Position numbers and translations under genes: made by a program. Shown here one piece after another: positions 1,235 to 56,257 of a stretch of 64,000 bases of DNA (its first letter is position 1; the number at the start of each line of letters is the position of its first letter). Source of the stretch: Lachnospiraceae bacterium. Its GTDB lineage: Bacteria > Bacillota > Clostridia > Lachnospirales > Lachnospiraceae. The stretch covers positions 1 to 64,000 of the forward strand of contig JAGAFR010000053.1 in NCBI GenBank assembly GCA_017612555.1, in the 5' to 3' direction. Under the pieces are notes generated by a model. It was not told the origin of the DNA. It saw only the letters and a program-made list of their open reading frames with translations, and did not search any database.

Positions 1235-1786
1235 TCACATTCCCGCTTTCCTGAACTTGTTATTAAACCGTCTCTTCGTATAAAAGAAATTCTTACGAAG
1301 AAGTTTCATTGTCCGTATAAGCTCGTCGGTCTTTATGATGAGTTCATGAAGATACGATCTGTTCGCGACATCTCCCTTCAGACATTCAATAAGGATCTGC
1401 ATATCCTCAATGAGTGGGATAGAATACTCAGCCCACCGATCCACTCCGGGGATATTGACTTCATTGATGACAACCTTTCCGAATCTGGCGAACCGCCTTA
1501 TCAATTCTGTCTCGGACAGCCGGGCTTCATTCGCAAAAGCCTCAAGTCGCAATGCATCTTCTCCTGAAAGTTTTATCTCCTTAACATATCCGGACGGGTC
1601 TCCTTCATAATGGACTTCCCGCAGACCGCCATCAGCCCGGTTTAATATGTCGGGATCATATGAACTGTATTTCTCTGCGCACGCTTGAACAACAACCTTA
1701 TTAAATGACGCTCCCTGTCGTTTTGCCTCGATATTCAGTACTTCGTTGATATCATCAGGGAAGACCACACTTCGTTTTACGCTCAT
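1235..1786 (-). CDS. MobC-like relaxase accessory protein (inferred)
   Basis: 183-residue soluble protein ending one base before the relaxase start. The N-terminus (SVKRSVVFPDDINEVLNIEA) resembles a ribbon-helix-helix DNA-binding segment: a short basic/hydrophobic strand followed by helices. RHH proteins encoded just upstream of relaxases typically bind oriT and recruit the relaxase; here that role is inferred from position and N-terminal look only. I chose the ATG at 1786 because AGGTGA lies five bases upstream of it. A GTG at 1795 is in frame but would place that ribosome site inside the gene. The C-terminal half is rich in Leu, Lys and Arg and not recognised. Confidence 0.6.
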   Translation of the reverse strand: MSVKRSVVFPDDINEVLNIEAKRQGASFNKVVVQACAEKYSSYDPDILNRADGGLREVHYEGDPSGYVKEIKLSGEDALRLEAFANEARLSETELIRRFARFGKVVINEVNIPGVDRWAEYSIPLIEDMQILIECLKGDVANRSYLHELIIKTDELIRTMKLLRKNFFYTKRRFNNKFRKAGM

Positions 1787-5122: not shown

Positions 5123-5160
5123 CAAAATGGACGTCGGGGTGACAGGATTCGAACCTGCGG
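5123..5160. other. Probable element-chromosome junction (att site) at the 3' end of tRNA-Pro
   Basis: The integrase gene faces the 3' end of the tRNA gene (base 5134), the usual geometry when an element recombines into a tRNA 3' end and its att core restores the acceptor and T-arm sequence. The exact core cannot be fixed because the other end of the element is outside the window. Confidence 0.5.
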
Positions 5161-5208
5161 CCTCCTGGTCCCAAACCAGGCGCTCTAGCCAAACTGAGCC
5201 ACACCCCG
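5134..5208 (-). tRNA. tRNA-Pro (anticodon TGG)
   Basis: 75-nt cloverleaf on the minus strand. The acceptor stem CGGGGTG (5208-5202) pairs with CACCCCG (5141-5135), with discriminator A at 5134. The anticodon arm is CCTGG-TTTGGGA-CCAGG with anticodon TGG, and the T-arm has GGTTCGAATCC. CCA is not encoded. It is the integration target of the element to its left. Confidence 0.95.
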
Positions 5209-49518: not shown

Positions 49519-50454
49519 TCACGCTTCCGTAAACAGGGCTGTAGAGTAATACCTGTCTCCGCTGTCGGGAAGAAGTGCAACTATTACTTTACCGGCATTT
49601 TCAGACTTCTTTGCATACTCTATCGCAGCATGAAGTGCAGCTCCCGACGATATTCCGACCGAGATGCCTTCCTTTTTGGCAAGCAGTTTTGCTGCCGCAA
49701 AAGCATCTTCGTTCGCTGCCGTGTAAACCTCATCATACACTTTCGTGTTGAGAACATCCGGAACAAAGCCCGCACCTATTCCCTGGATCTTGTGCGCTCC
49801 TGCTTTTCCTTCCGACAGTACAGGTGAATCCTTGGGTTCAAGTGCCACTACCTTAACGTTCGGGTTCTGCTCCTTCAGATACTCTCCGGTTCCGGTGACC
49901 GTTCCGCCCGTACCTACTCCGGCAATGAAGATATCAACCTTTCCGTCAGTATCCTTCCATATCTCCGGACCCGTTGTTGCCTTATGTATCGCGGGATTTG
50001 CAGGATTGACAAACTGCCCGGGAATAAAGCTGTTCGGGATCTCGTTTGCAAGTTCCTGTGCCTTTTCTATGGCGCCCTTCATTCCTTTGGCTCCTTCGGT
50101 CAGAACGATCTCCGCACCATATGCTTTAAGGATGCTCCTTCTTTCAACGCTCATCGTCTCAGGCATCGTAAGTATTATGCGATAACCCTTTGATGCCGCG
50201 ATTGCGGCAAGACCTATACCTGTGTTTCCGGATGTGGGTTCAATGATGACCGATCCTTCCTTTAACAATCCCTTCTGTTCCGCATCCTCGATCATCGCTT
50301 TTGCTATACGATCCTTGACGCTTCCTGCCGGGTTAAAGTATTCCAGCTTTACAAGCACCGTTGCCGACAGTCCGAGTTCTTTTTCGATATTGACTATCTC
50401 AACAAGAGGTGTGTTTCCCACAAGTCCAAGAGTTCCTTTGTAAATGTTTCCCAT
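49519..50454 (-). CDS. cysK: Cysteine synthase (O-acetylserine sulfhydrylase)
   Basis: 311 residues. PLP lysine Lys47 in GSVKDRIA, substrate loop PTSGNTGIG (73-81), PLP-phosphate loop [12 protein letters not shown], and [13 protein letters not shown] near the C-terminus. It makes cysteine from O-acetylserine and sulfide. ATG at 50454 follows AAAGGAAAGG; a start eight codons upstream lacks a ribosome site. It lies 41 bp after metY and shares its attenuated leader. Confidence 0.94.
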
Positions 50455-50495: not shown

Positions 50496-51776
50496 TCAGA
50501 TCGCCGCAAATCCTTTCTCAAGATCGGCGATTATATCATCTATATGCTCCGTTCCTATCGAAAGTCTTATCGTATTCTTCTTGATCCCCTGATCGATAAG
50601 CTCTTCTTCCGAAAGCTGTGAATGTGTTGTTGATGCGGGATGTATCACAAGGCTCTTAACATCCGCAACGTTTGCAAGAAGCGAGAAGATCTTGAGGTTA
50701 TCGATGAACTTCCAGGCCTCGTCCTGACCTCCCTTTATATCAAATGTAAAGATCGAACCCCCACCGTTCGGGAAGTACTTCTGATACAGAGCATGATCCG
50801 GATGATCAGCGATCGAAGGATGATTGACTTTCTCGACCTTCGGATGCTTTGACAGGAATTCAACCACCTTCTTCGTATTCTCAACGTGCCTCTCGAGACG
50901 AAGCGATAAAGTCTCAACACCCTGAAGAAGAAGGAATGCGTTAAACGGTGAGATGGTCGCTCCGGTATCTCTTAAGAGTATCGCCCTGATATATGTCACG
51001 AAAGCAGCCGGTCCCACCACATCGTAAAATGATACTCCGTGATAGCTCGGGTTGGGAGCCGCGATGTTCGGGTACTTTCCGCTTGCCTTCCAGTTAAACT
51101 TTCCGGACTCCACTATGATACCACCGAGTGTGGTACCGTGTCCTCCTATGAATTTTGTTGCGGAGTGCACGACTATATCCGCACCGTGCTCTATGGGCCT
51201 GATCAAAAACGGCGTTCCGAACGTATTGTCCACGACAATGGGGAGACCGTGCTTGTGTGCTATTTCAGCGATGGCATCGATATCCGGGATATCACTGTTG
51301 GGGTTTCCGAGAGTCTCAAGGTAGACGGCTCTTGTGTTATCCTTGATCGCTGCCTCAACCTCGGAAAGGTTGTGCGCATCAACAAACGTGGTCTCGATCC
51401 CGTACTGGGGAAGAGTATGTGCCAGAAGGTTGTAGCTTCCGCCGTAGATCGTCTTCTGTGCGACTATATGTCCGCCGTTTGCCGCAAGAGCTTCTATCGT
51501 ATACGTTATCGCTGCAGCTCCCGATGCAAGTGCAAGTGCAGCGTTTCCGCCTTCAAGTGCCGCAAGTCTCTTTTCAAGTACGTCCTGCGTTGAGTTGGTA
51601 AGTCTGCCGTATATATTTCCGGCATCAGCCAGTCCGAATCTGTCGGCTGCGTGTTTACTGTTATGAAAAACATAAGATGTTGTCTGGTATATGGGTACCG
51701 CTCTTGCGTCACTTGCCGGATCGGCCTCTTCCTGTCCTACGTGCAACTGTAATGTTTCAAATCTGTAATCGCTCAT
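50496..51776 (-). CDS. metY: O-acetylhomoserine sulfhydrylase
   Basis: 426 residues, Cys/Met-metabolism PLP family, MetY length. PLP lysine Lys208 in VVHSATKFIGGHGTT; VVDNTFGTP and YLETLGNP are the usual PLP contacts. Converts O-acetylhomoserine plus sulfide or methanethiol to homocysteine or methionine. AAAGGAG precedes the ATG at 51776. First protein-coding gene after the Cys/Met leader peptide, forming an operon with cysK. Confidence 0.93.
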   Translation of the reverse strand: MSDYRFETLQLHVGQEEADPASDARAVPIYQTTSYVFHNSKHAADRFGLADAGNIYGRLTNSTQDVLEKRLAALEGGNAALALASGAAAITYTIEALAANGGHIVAQKTIYGGSYNLLAHTLPQYGIETTFVDAHNLSEVEAAIKDNTRAVYLETLGNPNSDIPDIDAIAEIAHKHGLPIVVDNTFGTPFLIRPIEHGADIVVHSATKFIGGHGTTLGGIIVESGKFNWKASGKYPNIAAPNPSYHGVSFYDVVGPAAFVTYIRAILLRDTGATISPFNAFLLLQGVETLSLRLERHVENTKKVVEFLSKHPKVEKVNHPSIADHPDHALYQKYFPNGGGSIFTFDIKGGQDEAWKFIDNLKIFSLLANVADVKSLVIHPASTTHSQLSEEELIDQGIKKNTIRLSIGTEHIDDIIADLEKGFAAI

Positions 51777-51834: not shown

Positions 51835-51869
51835 ATAAAACAGCCCGGAGGCTGATCAGCTCCCGGGCT
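51835..51869 (-). terminator. Attenuator terminator upstream of metY
   Basis: Minus strand AGCCCGGGAG...CCTCCGGGCT hairpin (51869-51842; seven perfect pairs, one G-U, one mismatch, three more pairs, loop GATC) followed by GTTTTATT. Its 5' arm is the segment that can alternatively pair with the leader peptide gene. Confidence 0.85.
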
Positions 51870-51955
51870 TATGGCTTACAATGAGTATGTTTCAACATCG
51901 CTTGTCGAGGCAAAGAAGGCACGATCCTGCCCCGGCCATACTAAAAGCCCGGGAG
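51860..51955 (-). promoter_or_regulatory. Antiterminator pairing of the metY leader
   Basis: CTCCCGGGCTT inside the leader peptide gene (51955-51945, codons 19-23) is exactly complementary over 11 bp to AAGCCCGGGAG (51870-51860), the 5' arm of the terminator. The two structures exclude each other. The segment begins 14 nt after the Cys14 codon, just outside a ribosome stalled there. Confidence 0.8.
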
Positions 51956-52011
51956 TATAGCATTCGCCAACACATACACATGTACTGTTCATCTACGCGA
52001 ATATTAAGCAT
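51892..52011 (-). CDS. Cys/Met-rich leader peptide of the metY-cysK operon
   Basis: 39-codon reading frame, too short for usual gene calls. GGAGG lies eight bases before the ATG at 52011 and the TGA stop is at 51892. The peptide starts MLNIRVDEQY, then MCMCWRMLYSRAF, and ends CLLCLDKRC; Cys at 12, 14, 31, 34 and 39, Met at 1, 11, 13, 17 and 25. All four early control codons are ATG TGT ATG TGT. Ribosome stalling at these codons when Cys-tRNA or Met-tRNA is scarce would free the downstream segment for antitermination. It is shared in design and motif with the leader at 56071-56175. Confidence 0.8.
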   Translation of the reverse strand: MLNIRVDEQYMCMCWRMLYSRAFSMAGAGSCLLCLDKRC

Positions 52012-52046
52012 GTCTTCTTCCTCCTTCTTTACATCATCTGAGCGAT

Positions 52047-52075
52047 ATATTAACACTATTAACCTACTATGTCAA
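52047..52075 (-). promoter_or_regulatory. Promoter of the metY operon
   Basis: Minus strand TTGACA (52075-52070), 17-bp spacer, TAATAT (52052-52047); transcript starts near 52040, 29 nt before the leader peptide ATG. Confidence 0.8.
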
Positions 52076-52084
52076 TAGGTTAAT
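52058..52084. promoter_or_regulatory. 9-bp dyad operator over the metY -35 box
   Basis: ATTAACCTA (52058-52066) and its exact complement TAGGTTAAT (52076-52084), 9 bp apart, flank the TTGACA box. Placement fits a repressor such as an Rrf2/CymR-type sulfur regulator (inference). Confidence 0.55.
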
Positions 52085-52109: not shown

Positions 52110-52853
52110 TCACTGTTTGGAATACTCGAAAGTACTGAGAAACTTCCTGGCTCTCTCGGTCTTCGGAGACTCAAAAAAGCTTATGGGATCAGACTGTTCC
52201 ACTATGGTCCCGGCATCGAGGAGCACTATGCGGTCGGCGATAGCTTTGGCAAAAGCCATTTCATGTGTGACGATGATCATGGTGCGATCCTGGGACGCAA
52301 GATCAAGTATGACATCAAGAACTTCTCTTACCATTTCGGGATCGAGCGCGGCGGTAACTTCATCAAAGAGCAGGACCTCCGGGTTCATGATAAGCGCTCT
52401 TACTATCGCCACCCTCTGCTTCTGTCCGCCCGAAAGCTGTCTAGGGAAATTACCTTTCTTTGACGACAGTCCGACACGATCCAGGAGTTCTTCAGCTTCT
52501 TTTTTCACTTCAGCCTTGTCCCTTTTCTGAACCTTAAGCGGAGCCAGCATTATATTTTCAAGTATGGTCATATGCGGAAAAAGATCATAGCTTTGGAATA
52601 CCATCCCGATCCTTTCCCGGAGCTTTCTTATATTTCCCGTTGTCGGGTTTACGATCTCGCCGTCAAGAAGGACCTTTCCTTCCTCAATGCTCTCAAGTCC
52701 GTTGATGCAGCGAAGGAGCGTACTCTTTCCGCATCCGGAAGGTCCGACTATGACGACGACCTCTCCCTTACTTACGGAAAGATTTATGTCCTCAAGGACG
52801 GCAAGATCGTCAAAATTCTTATATAAATGATCTATCTTCAGGATCTCTTCCAT
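52110..52853 (-). CDS. Polar amino acid ABC transporter ATPase (cystine/methionine importer)
   Basis: 247 residues, GlnQ/HisP/TcyC family: Walker A GPSGCGKST, signature LSGGQKQRVAIVRAL, Walker B VLLFDEVTAALDPE, VTHEMAFAKAIADRIV. Walker B has DEVTAA, also seen in TcyC-like proteins, instead of the more common DEPTSA. It directly follows the second permease gene. Lacks the C-terminal ACT-like domain of MetN, so this is not a classic MetNIQ ATPase. Confidence 0.92.
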   Translation of the reverse strand: MEEILKIDHLYKNFDDLAVLEDINLSVSKGEVVVIVGPSGCGKSTLLRCINGLESIEEGKVLLDGEIVNPTTGNIRKLRERIGMVFQSYDLFPHMTILENIMLAPLKVQKRDKAEVKKEAEELLDRVGLSSKKGNFPRQLSGGQKQRVAIVRALIMNPEVLLFDEVTAALDPEMVREVLDVILDLASQDRTMIIVTHEMAFAKAIADRIVLLDAGTIVEQSDPISFFESPKTERARKFLSTFEYSKQ

Positions 52854-53522
52854 TTAGTTCTCCCACCTTTTCTCAAGCATCCTGGACAGTCCGCTGATAG
52901 GTCCGCACACGAGATAATACAGCAGAAAGATCACCGCGAACACACCAAAAGCTGCCTTGGGCGAAGTCTTCCTGTTTGCTTCTATTATCTGCTGACCTAC
53001 TTTTAATACCTCTACTATACCGATCATCGTAACAAGGCTCGTTGTCTTGATCATCCTCGTTATGAGATTGATGGAAAGCGGTATGAGTCTTCGTATGATC
53101 TGGGGTATTATAACATAAATATATGTCTGGAGGTTCGACAGTCCCAGCGCCATGCTGCTCTCATACTGTATGGCGGGAATGCTGATAAGGCTTCCGCGAA
53201 CGAGGTCCGCCATCTCTGCCGTGCCCCAGAATGAAAATACTATAAGTGATGCGGTCTCGGCCGAAAGATTAACGCCCGTCATCTTGGTGATCCCGAAGAA
53301 TACTATGAACAAAAGGACCATCTGTGGCATTATACGTACGACCTCAAGATAAATACGCAGTACAGCGTTTACTGCCGGCTTTTTCATTGTCATGATCATG
53401 CCCAGTATGATACCGAGCACTATACTGACCGCCACCGATATCATGCTGATCTTCATGGCAACACCCAGACCTTCGAGAAGTCGTATCAGATTTTTTCCTT
53501 TAAATATAACTTCGATCCCCAT
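52854..53522 (-). CDS. Polar amino acid ABC transporter permease 2
   Basis: 222 residues, five helices, HisM/GlnP family, with the EAA loop near QTYIYVIIPQIIRRLIPLSI. It lies 3 bp after the first permease gene; together they should form a heterodimeric channel. Confidence 0.9.
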   Translation of the reverse strand: MGIEVIFKGKNLIRLLEGLGVAMKISMISVAVSIVLGIILGMIMTMKKPAVNAVLRIYLEVVRIMPQMVLLFIVFFGITKMTGVNLSAETASLIVFSFWGTAEMADLVRGSLISIPAIQYESSMALGLSNLQTYIYVIIPQIIRRLIPLSINLITRMIKTTSLVTMIGIVEVLKVGQQIIEANRKTSPKAAFGVFAVIFLLYYLVCGPISGLSRMLEKRWEN

Positions 53523-53525
53523 ATA

Positions 53526-54185
53526 TCAATCTCCGAACATGCTGTAACGCATTTTCTTTTCGATGATGCTCCCCGCAAAAGACACAGGAAGGAGCATGAT
53601 CACATAAAAGATCACAAGAAGGAACAGACTCTCGGTCGTGTCGTAATACAGACCGATAAGATCCTTTGCCGTAAACATCAGATCCATAAGGCTGATAGCC
53701 GAAAATACACTTGTCTCTTTGAGAAGAAATATGATATTTGCAACGATCGCGGGAACACTTATGGATATCGCCTGCGGAAGGATAACCGATACAAAAAGCC
53801 TGCCCTTTGACATTCCAAGGGCCATTGCACTTTCGGTCTGAATATACGGAACAGCTTCCAGTCCGCTCCTGAAGCTCTCCGCCATATAGCTTCCCCCAAG
53901 AAGTCCGAGAGCTACCGTACCGCAGACTTCTGCGGGAATACTTATTCCGATCGCCGGAAGCCCGAAGTAGATAAAAAACAGCTGGATAAGAAGCGGTGTG
54001 TTTCTGAACAGTTCAACATAGAACTTTATGAATCCCGACAGCATCGGTATCTTGAAATACAGAACAAAAGCACTGAACATGCCGATAAAGACCGCCAAAG
54101 CGATCCCCATCCATCCGATCTTCAGTGTAAGAAGAAATGCCTCCGTGAACAACGGCAAATATGACCTTATGACTTCAAGATCCAT
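53526..54185 (-). CDS. Polar amino acid ABC transporter permease 1
   Basis: 219 residues, HisM/GlnP family, with ELFRNTPLLIQLFFIYFG and the EAA-type loop SKGRLFVSVILPQAISISVP. I took the ATG at 54185; a TTG at 54197 is nearer to AAAGG, but too close to it, so the start is uncertain by four codons. It follows the binding-protein gene after a weak terminator-like hairpin. Confidence 0.9.
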   Translation of the reverse strand: MDLEVIRSYLPLFTEAFLLTLKIGWMGIALAVFIGMFSAFVLYFKIPMLSGFIKFYVELFRNTPLLIQLFFIYFGLPAIGISIPAEVCGTVALGLLGGSYMAESFRSGLEAVPYIQTESAMALGMSKGRLFVSVILPQAISISVPAIVANIIFLLKETSVFSAISLMDLMFTAKDLIGLYYDTTESLFLLVIFYVIMLLPVSFAGSIIEKKMRYSMFGD

Positions 54186-54221
54186 GCTGCCAAACAATTC
54201 CTTTCATTTAAATGACACAAT

Positions 54222-54247
54222 ACGAGAGAGCCGTAAAGCTCTCCCGT
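54222..54247 (-). terminator. Weak intercistronic terminator-like hairpin after the fused binding protein
   Basis: Minus strand arms ACGGGAGAGC and GCTCTCTCGT (one G-U), 6-nt loop, 16 bp after the stop codon, followed by a poor T-run (ATTGTGTCATTT). It probably protects or partly terminates the message so that binding protein exceeds permease. Confidence 0.5.
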
Positions 54248-54263
54248 ACCGTGGCATGACTGA

Positions 54264-55943
54264 TTAGTTTTCAAAGAATACCACTGCACCGTCATATGTA
54301 TCTTCAATGAACTTCTTGATCTCATCAGACCTTAATACTGTAACAAGTGCCTTGATCTTGTCAAGTGATTCATTTCCTTCCTTGACGGCGATGATATTAA
54401 CATATGTCTTGGCTGCTACCGAATCGCTTGCTTCATATGCTATTGAATCCTTACCTACCGAATATCCTGCCTCAAGTGCGTAGTTTCCGTTAAGGACAAC
54501 ATATTCAACTTCGTTTACGACTCTGGCAACCTGGGCTGCTTCAAGCTCAACGAACTTAATGTTGTGAGGATTCTCGGTGATATCATTGACTGTTGCCGTA
54601 AGACCTACGCCATCCTTGAGCTTTAAGAGTCCGTTATCCTGAAGAAGGAGCAGTGCTCTAGCTTCGTTTGTCGTATCATTGGGTACTGCTATCGAATCTC
54701 CGTCCGCAACATCTGCAAGATCCGACTTCTTACCGGGATAGATCCCGAAAGGCTCATAATGGATACCGCCTGCATTTACAAGGTGTGTTCCCTGCTCTTC
54801 ATTAAAACTGTCAAGATAAGGAACGTGCTGGAAATAGTTTGCATCAAATTCACCTGATTCAACAACAAGGTTGGGCTGTACATAATCTTCAAATTCAACA
54901 ACATCAAGCTTGTAACCGTATCCTTCAAGAATGCCTGCTGCCTTTGCAAGTATCTCTGCGTGAGGTGTTGCGGAAGCCGCTATCTTGATAGTCTCACCGT
55001 TTCCGTTCGGTATATCAAGATCGCCTGCTGCTGCGGGAGTACTTGCTGCCTGACCATCGACAACTCCGCCTTCAACCACAAGTGTATCCTCATAATCTTT
55101 TCCGTATGTATCAAGAAGTGTTGCTTCATAGTCTGCGTGGAAGAAGTTCTCGTTTCCAAGTGCGACTATCTCATCATTGAGCCAGTCAAGAAGCGTGCTG
55201 TTTCCTTTTGATACCGCAGGTGCTATCGTATCCTGACTTCCGAGTGAAGGGATACCCACAACGTAGCCTTTGTTTTCAAGTGAGTATGCTATAACTTCCG
55301 TATTGTCATTTGCCCATGCAACGCCTGTTCCGTTCTCAAAAGATGTCTTGGCTGATGCATATGTATCAAACTTCTGAAGCTTGATCTCCGGGTTGTTCTT
55401 CTCAAGGTATGTCTCAGCTGTCGTGCCTGAGATAACGATTATCTGGTCATCGGCTCCCACCTGATCGAGGCTCTCTATAACGTTGTCCTCATGAGATACT
55501 ACACCGAGTGCCACATTCATGTAAGGAAGTGCGAAGTCAACCTTTTCTGCTCTTTCTTCGGTAACTGTAAAGTTTGCAAGTACGATGTCGACCTTACCTG
55601 TCTCAAGATACTCTACTCTGCTTGCTGCTTCGGTCGATACGTAGTTGATATCAACTCCGAGGTCTTTTCCGATCCTCTCTGCGAAGTATACGTCATAGCC
55701 CTGATACTCTCCGTTCTCATCAACATATCCGAAGGGGTTCTTGTCGGAGAACACGCCGATGTTTATCTTTCCGTCGGCCTTGATCTCATCAAGTGTCCTG
55801 TAAACCTTATTTGCGTCATCGGCTGCTGCACCGTCAGATGCGGGTGCTGCGGGTGCAAGCCCTGCGCATCCTGTAAGTGCGGATGCCGCTACACCTATCG
55901 TGATAAGCCCTGTTAACAGTTTTGTTACTAATGATCTTTTCAT
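54264..55943 (-). CDS. Fused SBP_bac_3 plus NlpA/MetQ substrate-binding lipoprotein
   Basis: 559 residues, about twice the length of either family. Signal peptide with lipobox LTGC (Cys26). Residues 47-288 form an SBP_bac_3 domain of the cystine/polar amino acid type (INIGVFSDKNPFGYVDENGE; VDIVLANFTVTEERAEKVDF). Residues 289-316 are a Gly/Ala/Pro linker. Residues 317-559 form an NlpA/MetQ domain (IKIAASATPHAEILAKA; ANYFQHVPYLDSFNEEQG; HYEPFGIYPGKKS). One polypeptide thus carries a cystine-type and a methionine-type receptor for one HisM-type transporter. It is preceded by the second Cys/Met leader peptide and attenuator. Confidence 0.93.
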   Translation of the reverse strand: MKRSLVTKLLTGLITIGVAASALTGCAGLAPAAPASDGAAADDANKVYRTLDEIKADGKINIGVFSDKNPFGYVDENGEYQGYDVYFAERIGKDLGVDINYVSTEAASRVEYLETGKVDIVLANFTVTEERAEKVDFALPYMNVALGVVSHEDNVIESLDQVGADDQIIVISGTTAETYLEKNNPEIKLQKFDTYASAKTSFENGTGVAWANDNTEVIAYSLENKGYVVGIPSLGSQDTIAPAVSKGNSTLLDWLNDEIVALGNENFFHADYEATLLDTYGKDYEDTLVVEGGVVDGQAASTPAAAGDLDIPNGNGETIKIAASATPHAEILAKAAGILEGYGYKLDVVEFEDYVQPNLVVESGEFDANYFQHVPYLDSFNEEQGTHLVNAGGIHYEPFGIYPGKKSDLADVADGDSIAVPNDTTNEARALLLLQDNGLLKLKDGVGLTATVNDITENPHNIKFVELEAAQVARVVNEVEYVVLNGNYALEAGYSVGKDSIAYEASDSVAAKTYVNIIAVKEGNESLDKIKALVTVLRSDEIKKFIEDTYDGAVVFFEN

Positions 55944-56007: not shown

Positions 56008-56037
56008 AAACAAAAAGCCCGGTCTCATCTCCCGGGC
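56008..56037 (-). terminator. Attenuator terminator upstream of the fused binding-protein gene
   Basis: Minus strand GCCCGG (56037-56032) and CCGGGC (56022-56017) with a 9-nt loop, followed by TTTTTGTTT. Its 5' arm overlaps the segment complementary to the leader peptide gene. Confidence 0.85.
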
Positions 56038-56128
56038 AATGGTTCTGCAGTAATCGAAATGACTTCTTTCCTACCTTGGAGTGCATGACAAATGAGCCAC
56101 ACATCCGACCATCTTGCTTGCCCGGGAG
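56029..56128 (-). promoter_or_regulatory. Antiterminator pairing of the cystine/methionine importer leader
   Basis: CTCCCGGGCAA inside the leader peptide gene (56128-56118) is exactly complementary over 11 bp to TTGCCCGGGAG (56039-56029) in the terminator 5' arm. Compared with the metY leader the last two pairs differ but stay paired (TT/AA versus AA/TT), which is compensatory change. Confidence 0.8.
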
Positions 56129-56228: not shown

Positions 56229-56257
56229 ATCATACACCTACTTTTTTAGTATGTCAA
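56229..56257 (-). promoter_or_regulatory. Promoter of the cystine/methionine importer operon
   Basis: Minus strand TTGACA (56257-56252), 17-bp spacer, TATGAT (56234-56229). The plus strand reads ACCTAC and TATGTCAATA here, both also found at the metY promoter with different spacing. Confidence 0.8.

Follow-up and report, generated by a model that had tools for sequence, protein, structure and literature searches.

The leader that precedes the metY-cysK operon in the window, i.e. the whole stretch of 64,000 nucleotides analysed here, is very probably a ribosome-mediated transcription attenuator reading cysteine and methionine codons. An earlier note, made from the letters of this DNA alone, had proposed such an attenuator, and the proposal was supported by the conservation of the reading frame and of a stop codon ahead of the shared arm, by a covarying antiterminator, by Met/Cys control codons found independently and by the sulfur genes lying downstream.

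The promoter, the ribosome site and the 39-codon ORF with Met-Cys-Met-Cys and three later Cys, all of them read in the earlier note, were present at their coordinates, and the genes behind the leader proved to be metY and cysK as announced there (Table 1). The first leader peptide (MLNIRVDEQYMCMCWRMLYSRAFSMAGAGSCLLCLDKRC, 39 aa) has Cys at positions 12 and 14 and three more Cys later. Inside the ORF, CTCCCGGGCTT (51955-51945) is exactly complementary to AAGCCCGGGAG (51870-51860) of the terminator 5' arm, and the antiterminator arm begins 14 nt past the last early Cys codon, both as originally claimed. A complement of 11 nt did not appear in any of 5000 dinucleotide shuffles of the stretch from the ORF to the terminator, the longest one obtained being of 10 nt, in two shuffles. 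A weak point of the first terminator is its short U-run (GTTTTATT).

Table 1. Features of the two leaders of the window and of the genes behind them.
Feature	Position	Strand	Details and basis
Promoter, first leader	52047..52080	-	TTGACA 52075-52070, 17-nt spacer, TAATAT 52052-52047; sequence
Inverted repeat ACCTA-N9-TAGGT overlapping first-leader promoter	within 52047..52080	-	Conserved in relatives
Ribosome-binding site AAGGAGG	52020..52026	-	Sequence
Leader peptide ORF, 39 codons	51892..52011	-	ATG 52011 to TGA 51892; sequence and frame conservation
Control codons Met-Cys-Met-Cys (codons 11-14)	51970..51981	-	Sequence and enrichment in relatives
CGAATG (Arg-Met), between control codons and antiterminator arm	51961..51966	-	Strong conservation
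Antiterminator 5' arm	51935..51955	-	Core CTCCCGGGCTT 51955-51945, bulge, outer ATGGC 51939-51935
Hairpin P, within ORF	51906..51934	-	Minimum-energy fold; swap test
Hairpin Q, overlapping stop codon	51878..51901	-	Minimum-energy fold; weaker swap test
Shared arm GCCATAAGCCCGGGAG, serving as 3' arm of the antiterminator and 5' arm of the terminator	51860..51875	-	Sequence, folds, covariation
Intrinsic terminator	51837..51869	-	GC-rich hairpin 51869-51842, short U-run 51840-51837; sequence, folds
metY, O-acetylhomoserine sulfhydrylase	50496..51776	-	TIGR01326, E 2.8e-191, above cut-off
cysK, cysteine synthase A	49519..50454	-	TIGR01139, E 4.6e-136, above cut-off
Promoter, second leader	56229..56257	-	TTGACA 56257-56252, TATGAT 56234-56229; sequence
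Second leader peptide ORF, 34 codons, MCMCCMC control codons	56071..56175	-	Peptide MKAKEMCMCCMCRMLDSRASKMVGCVAHLSCTPR; sequence
Second antiterminator arm CTCCCGGGCA	56119..56128	-	Sequence, folds
Second terminator GCCCGGGAG..CCGGGC and U-run	56012..56037	-	Sequence, folds
ABC transporter operon under second leader	52110..55943	-	Binding protein, two permeases, ATPase; profile matches

A second copy of the leader was located at 56257-56012 on the minus strand, upstream of an amino acid ABC transporter operon which, by its candidate substrate, may be of the cystine/methionine type. The weak point of this copy is its promoter, without the ACCTA half of the inverted repeat. The binding protein of the operon (54264-55943) has a family-3 binding domain fused to a MetQ/NlpA domain in one polypeptide. 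Neither of the two window leader peptides gave a match in NCBIfam and Pfam.

A search with the peptide gave matches in 13 of 61 genomes and led to 12 real leaders besides the window's own, three matches (L011, L013 and L018) being dropped because the leader features were absent. A covariance search, which had been suggested in the earlier note, recovered a family. The model (R1), with a seed of 14 leaders, begins at GAATG, right after the control codons and, as consequence, these codons remain an independent test. R1 gave 27 matches in 16 of 37 genomes of the genus, and matches in 24 of 392 genomes of the order and, with E up to 1e-4, in 5 of 398 of the phylum, the own genome being included in the three sets; in one other genus, matches were obtained in 10 of 29 genomes. 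Of 54 non-seed matches inspected, 52 presented a Met/Cys control-codon ORF (11/13 in the genus, 28/28 in the order, 4/4 in the phylum and 9/9 in the other genus), two further order-level matches lying outside those 54. The R1 matches L038 (E 0.0034) and L039 (E 0.009) were plain terminators and were dropped.

In addition, the exact pattern TGKCGAATGNNNNNCTCCCRGGC was searched across named genomes, giving at least 119 matches in at least 118 loci. Ten of the 119 listed, with neither promoter motif nor terminator arm, were dropped before counting (L067, L074, L075, L083, L090, L107, L113, L132, L157 and L160; by title, eight came from other groups and L157 from Eubacteriales). Among the 109 kept of the matches listed, arm scores were at least 8 of 9 in 105 and TATTGACA was found within 280 nt in 91. 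By title, they belonged to Lachnospiraceae, Ruminococcaceae, Saccharofermentans, Oscillospiraceae, Blautia, Christensenella and other Clostridia or Bacillota, together with one so-called Eggerthellaceae bin, one uncultured bacterium and two Anaerovibrio, which we take to be Negativicutes. Isolates, judged by title, occur among the relatives, for example Anaerovibrio lipolyticus DSM 3074 and Lachnospiraceae AC2029, XBB2008 and YSD2013. All the sets together comprised at least 162 members and, with seven places held twice, at least 155 distinct leaders, mostly of Clostridia. In one locus (L088, 1047-1196) two leaders stand in tandem with an N stretch between them. For studying structure and frame, 112 non-redundant members of the leaders listed were used; L045, L191 and L196, shifted by indels with respect to the frame of the model, were excluded and were also left out of some codon counts.

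The control codons were clearly concentrated in one place. Cys occurred within the six codons before the Arg in 36 of 39 members found with the covariance model (CM members), the three misses being the indel-shifted L045, L191 and L196, in which Cys is present when they are read in their own ORF frame. In the 36 CM members with an assigned start, Cys amounted to 35.1% of the six codons preceding the Arg, to 1.4% before them and to 8.3% after the Arg, the corresponding values for Met being 27.5, 5.2 and 9.7%. The pattern TGKCGAATGNNNNNCTCCCRGGC admits only Cys or Trp at codon -1, and this codon therefore gives no evidence in the pattern matches; codon -2 is free, and it was Cys in 80 of the 109 kept among those listed. 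TGT and TGC were in a ratio of 204:43 in the leaders, which come from many genomes, and of 61:94 in 21 genes of the window, which come from one.

The frame was also conserved. A ribosome site and a start accompanied the control-codon frame in 108 of the 112 members, the two alternative frames having them in 8 and 13; in the control-codon frame a stop codon lay ahead of the shared arm in all 112, compared with 78 and 83 for the alternative frames. The distance from the stop codon to the shared arm had a median of 31 nt and was of 20-45 nt in 141 of 160 leaders listed. The peptide drifts: 13 distinct close pairs had 22 synonymous and 64 non-synonymous codon changes, distributed over the three codon positions as 39, 33 and 43. 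Such drift is compatible with a leader peptide and speaks against a small protein with a function of its own; taken alone it would fit no coding as well.

The Arg-Met that follows the control codons is strongly conserved. CGA, which the genes of the window use least among the Arg codons (16/465), is kept in 36 of 39 CM members, its GA falling within R1, and when a pairing partner for CGAATG was searched by eye in several members none was consistent. A conserved Arg-Met of this kind, with its pairing partner not found, could suggest that the nascent peptide itself arrests the ribosome through a CCRM motif, sensing some small molecule, or translation stress in general, instead of tRNA charging. 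However, the peptide drifts as described, variants of the control region (MWCRM, MYCRM, CMHRM and CMFRM) exist, and the mix of Met and Cys varies among leaders and is different in those before MetN-like genes, so that we consider an arrest peptide very improbable.

The pairing of the antiterminator was studied in a CM alignment that leans towards the structure and comprises 101 members drawn from 100 chosen sources: 96.4% of the cells were paired and double changes were present at 7 of 12 pairs. None of 500 shuffles reached any of five antiterminator measures, and slid structures paired in 21-60%. It must be taken into account that alignment A2 was fitted to the counted pairs and that the core arm was found by complementarity, both of which favour pairing. 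In the swap test, in which pairing with the own partner and with the partners of other members was compared and the better one scored, the own partner was better in 101 of 112 members for the core, 91 of 112 for the outer stem, 97 of 112 for hairpin P, which thus covaries rather than holding its sequence, and 72 of 106 for hairpin Q; no signal was obtained at three control windows. The pairing of the terminator itself gave neither signal in this test (66/112) nor covariation, and a T-run follows the terminator in 147 of 158 leaders listed. A protector hairpin formed by the arm and a segment named 2a, plausible by eye, was without signal (57/112, in a test to which the conserved arms give little power) and is not claimed. 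Of the wiring proposed in the earlier note the core pairing stood, now as part of a longer stem around two hairpins. In five MetN-type leaders (L176, L188, L189, L201 and L203) the terminator 3' arm is shifted (GGCAGTGG or GGCAATGG) and pairs with the outer portion of the shared arm, the antiterminator register being the same. Judged by sequence comparison, the ORF, its control codons, the antiterminator, hairpin P and the gene context can be considered established, and hairpin Q more weakly.

Minimum-energy folds of the 112 members, counted without a shuffled control, gave the following picture. All 112 RNAs ending ahead of the last terminator arm folded into the antiterminator, whether or not the control codons were covered. 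Once the whole leader was made, the antiterminator was obtained in 90 of 112, that is, not in all, when the control codons were covered, and in 87 of 112, with the terminator in 24, when no ribosome was placed on it. With a ribosome at the stop codon, the RNA downstream folded into the terminator in 109 of 112, hairpin P being covered by this ribosome in 57 of 112 only. Since the ribosome-free fold is mostly the antiterminator, termination would have to depend on a ribosome within the loop, a step that goes beyond what the folds show.

A multi-helix antiterminator with a terminator upstream of sulfur genes could also belong to a metabolite-binding riboswitch or a T-box, in which case the ORF would be accidental. 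SAM-I riboswitches and T-boxes are usual before sulfur genes of Firmicutes; SAM-I was present in 28 of 37 genomes of the genus, and the own genome has a T-box match elsewhere (contig C39; 89.2 bits, the cut-off being 93). However, the only match at gathering score in the window with Rfam was a tRNA at 5134-5208, no family of this database matched the leader above that score, and scanning the leader with E up to 5 gave just three sub-threshold matches, to an sRNA and two microRNA families. The T-box and SAM-I models had no match in the window at gathering score nor in the leader with E up to 5, and the one SAM-I match of the own genome (contig C38) stands before a metK gene. Moreover, hairpin P covaries and the frame and the control codons are conserved, which makes this explanation more improbable even than peptide arrest.

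For the attenuator reading Cys and Met codons a mechanism can be proposed, in which four elements are inferred by us: that the ribosome stalls, which tRNA is sensed, that transcription terminates, and what a ribosome does on reaching the stop codon. A ribosome would begin the leader ORF behind the RNA polymerase and, if charged tRNA-Cys were scarce (or tRNA-Met, to a degree depending on the gene), it would stall on the Cys/Met codons and its front edge would come to rest immediately before the arm CTCCCGGGC, 14 nt ahead of these codons. The exposed arm would then pair with the shared GCCCGGGAG arm, closing over hairpins P and Q, and the antiterminator so formed would block the terminator and allow the transcription of metY-cysK or of the transporter. 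With plentiful Cys the codons would be read fast and the ribosome would reach the stop codon, between the two arms, where it would break hairpin Q (and P too in about half of the relatives) and hold the arms apart; the shared arm would pair locally into the terminator and transcription would end. If this is true, the wiring is reverse: transcription would continue on RNA free of ribosomes, and the arrival of a ribosome at the stop codon would be what permits termination. Unlike in trp, loss of leader translation is predicted to raise expression and not to lower it.

The genes behind the leaders were assigned, for the at least 155 distinct leaders, by short motifs chosen by us. Cys/Met genes were the next downstream in 127 of the 155 listed: 73 metY, 31 TcyA-type binding proteins, 14 MetQ, 4 sulfur PLP enzymes, 3 MetN-like and 2 cysK. 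A further 14 had 7 permeases, 4 peptidases, 2 other binding proteins and 1 gene called metK, before which a tRNA intervenes, and no gene was assigned in the remaining 14, six of which have only a short stretch of sequence behind the leader. Ten of these genes were compared with NCBIfam. The cysK, the metK and a peptidase T-like protein were above cut-off; two MetN, two MetQ, of which one is a fusion, and an OAH-sulfhydrylase-like enzyme had these as best match below the curated cut-off; and with E 1e-40 no match was obtained for a permease (L060) or one binding protein (L064). M20/peptidase T-like genes lie behind the leaders L193, checked by NCBIfam, L194, L100 and L165, and in L045 a tRNA-Met gene (1847-1916) is downstream of the leader and cysK.

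The content in control codons differed with the target. Nine MetN-like leaders had 3.9 Met and 1.2 Cys per eight codons, versus 1.4 and 2.3 in 156 others, in a comparison resting on a single other genus with near-identical leaders among the nine; as they share ancestry, their richness in Met counts as one event and not as nine. This dependence of the Met share on the target was not in the earlier note, and neither was the operator-like repeat on the promoter described below. In four loci of the same other genus (L196 and L207-L209, about 1430-1500, minus strand) a tRNA gene is right behind the leader terminator, with 45.2 bits for the Rfam tRNA model in L196 and 39.1, 38.7 and 37.8 bits in L207, L209 and L208, respectively. 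Gene finding identified the one of L196 as tRNA-Cys (GCA) and called none in L207-L209, where the anticodon arm is altered. Behind the tRNA, a DUF2292 ORF was read in the four loci (Pfam match in the two tested), and metK comes only beyond it, not being readable in L207 because the stretch is masked. As the tRNA or tRNA-like gene and the DUF2292 ORF lie between, metK was rejected as direct target in these loci, in which SAM-I was not found at gathering score either. The leader before tRNA-Cys perhaps represents attenuation of a tRNA gene and, if so, a shortage of charged tRNA-Cys could increase the supply of tRNA-Cys.

Of the 162 members listed, 125 have TTGACA no more than 150 nt away from the arm. 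In 111 full-length sites the inverted repeat ACCTA-N9-TAGGT, which overlaps the -35 box, was conserved in 84-96% at the ACCTA positions and in 65-93% at those of TAGGT. The pattern CTATTGACAYNNTNGG occurred four times in the own genome and its reversed control did not occur: before this leader, a PLP enzyme, iscS-iscU-like genes and a second metY-cysK operon with an Rrf2 gene. No leader ORF was seen before the PLP enzyme and the iscS-iscU-like genes, and the second window leader did not match the pattern. The second operon (L217; contig C84, 4713-633, minus strand) has the order metY-cysK-Rrf2-transporter, the same repeat and a short Cys-codon ORF (MYRFIMNKWKDSMCCRCMGSTQTD), with no terminator ahead of metY; it might be a decayed or translational form of the leader. 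The repeat over the -35 box is a putative operator, which probably adds repression by a regulator of the Rrf2 family, a CymR-like repressor being the natural candidate. Two Rrf2 proteins (L214 and L215) are encoded in the own genome. Control exclusively at the promoter by such a repressor, with the ORF translated and the terminator acting as a constitutive brake, would suit the strong conservation of the repeat and its recurrence before genes without leader ORF, but it leaves the covarying antiterminator and the control codons unexplained, and the second window copy retains the leader though its repeat is degenerate, which makes it the least credible of the alternatives.

Beyond the attenuator itself, a wider statement can be advanced with some hesitation, our confidence in the whole of it being slightly short of even: an undescribed family of attenuators, extending from Clostridia to one or more further classes of the phylum, with a Cys/Met mix tuned to the target and a wiring reverse to that of trp, would act in series with a sulfur repressor and, in one genus, where it stands right before a tRNA-Cys gene or a tRNA-like remnant, in a feedback on tRNA-Cys. 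With a leader-peptide attenuator at work, many rumen and gut Clostridia would have an added sulfur sensor based on translation, short unannotated Cys-rich ORFs would be explained, and the charging of tRNAs with cysteine and methionine could be reported in organisms hard to grow. The different Met/Cys mix of the targets makes the rule that codon content sets the signal directly testable.

In Firmicutes, control of the genes for sulfur amino acids is usually attributed to SAM riboswitches, T-boxes or CymR. The attenuators of trp, his and leu in Proteobacteria combine an ORF with control codons, alternative antiterminator and terminator, and biosynthetic genes downstream. The leader described here resembles them in its short control-codon ORF, in its antiterminator opposed to a terminator and in the biosynthetic genes behind. 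However, its codons are of Cys and Met, its antiterminator encloses two further hairpins, a protector hairpin is unsupported in it, and its ribosome-free RNA is predicted to read through instead of terminating.

CymR, an Rrf2 regulator, controls cysteine genes, as stated in the available part of PMC3828012. The likeness with the system proposed here is in the kind of target genes, together with the Rrf2 gene of the repeat-bearing metY-cysK operon of the own genome; CymR control is exerted at the promoter level (PMC3828012).

Among the leaders with Cys codons, the uORFC-8-2 motif preceding cysS in Rhodobacterales has tandem Cys codons and a terminator-like stem with a U-run, and ribosome-mediated attenuation has been proposed for it, according to the accessible text of PMC8632094. 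Compared by description, both share the Cys-codon uORF and this stem; the motif differs in being reported there from Alphaproteobacteria only, before the single gene cysS and with two prominent stems, its junction form being rare and without covariation support. In Mycobacterium and relatives, leader ORFs with Cys runs precede cys genes (PMC1262725, in the portion available) and would act by translational attenuation, as cited in the part of PMC13236596 at hand. They are alike in having Cys codons in a leader ORF ahead of cys genes, and they differ in that, within that portion of PMC1262725, no conserved terminator is found and the Cys run is close to the stop codon. A histidine leader peptide before hisS paralogues of bacilli is, likewise, a leader-peptide attenuator in Firmicutes, but with His codons and other genes; in the extract available, its authors state that, to their knowledge, none had been shown earlier outside Proteobacteria and Actinobacteria (PMC2965389).

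The earlier note had considered a peptide attenuator of this kind to be new. For the sulfur genes of Firmicutes this holds in the literature searched, in which subscription papers are thinly covered and no description of this attenuator family was found; more generally it does not, as attenuators with Cys codons are known elsewhere, i.e. at cysS of Rhodobacterales (PMC8632094, as far as its accessible text goes) and, of translational type, in mycobacteria. In our judgement, it is the wiring and the location that set this leader apart from the leader-peptide attenuators described.
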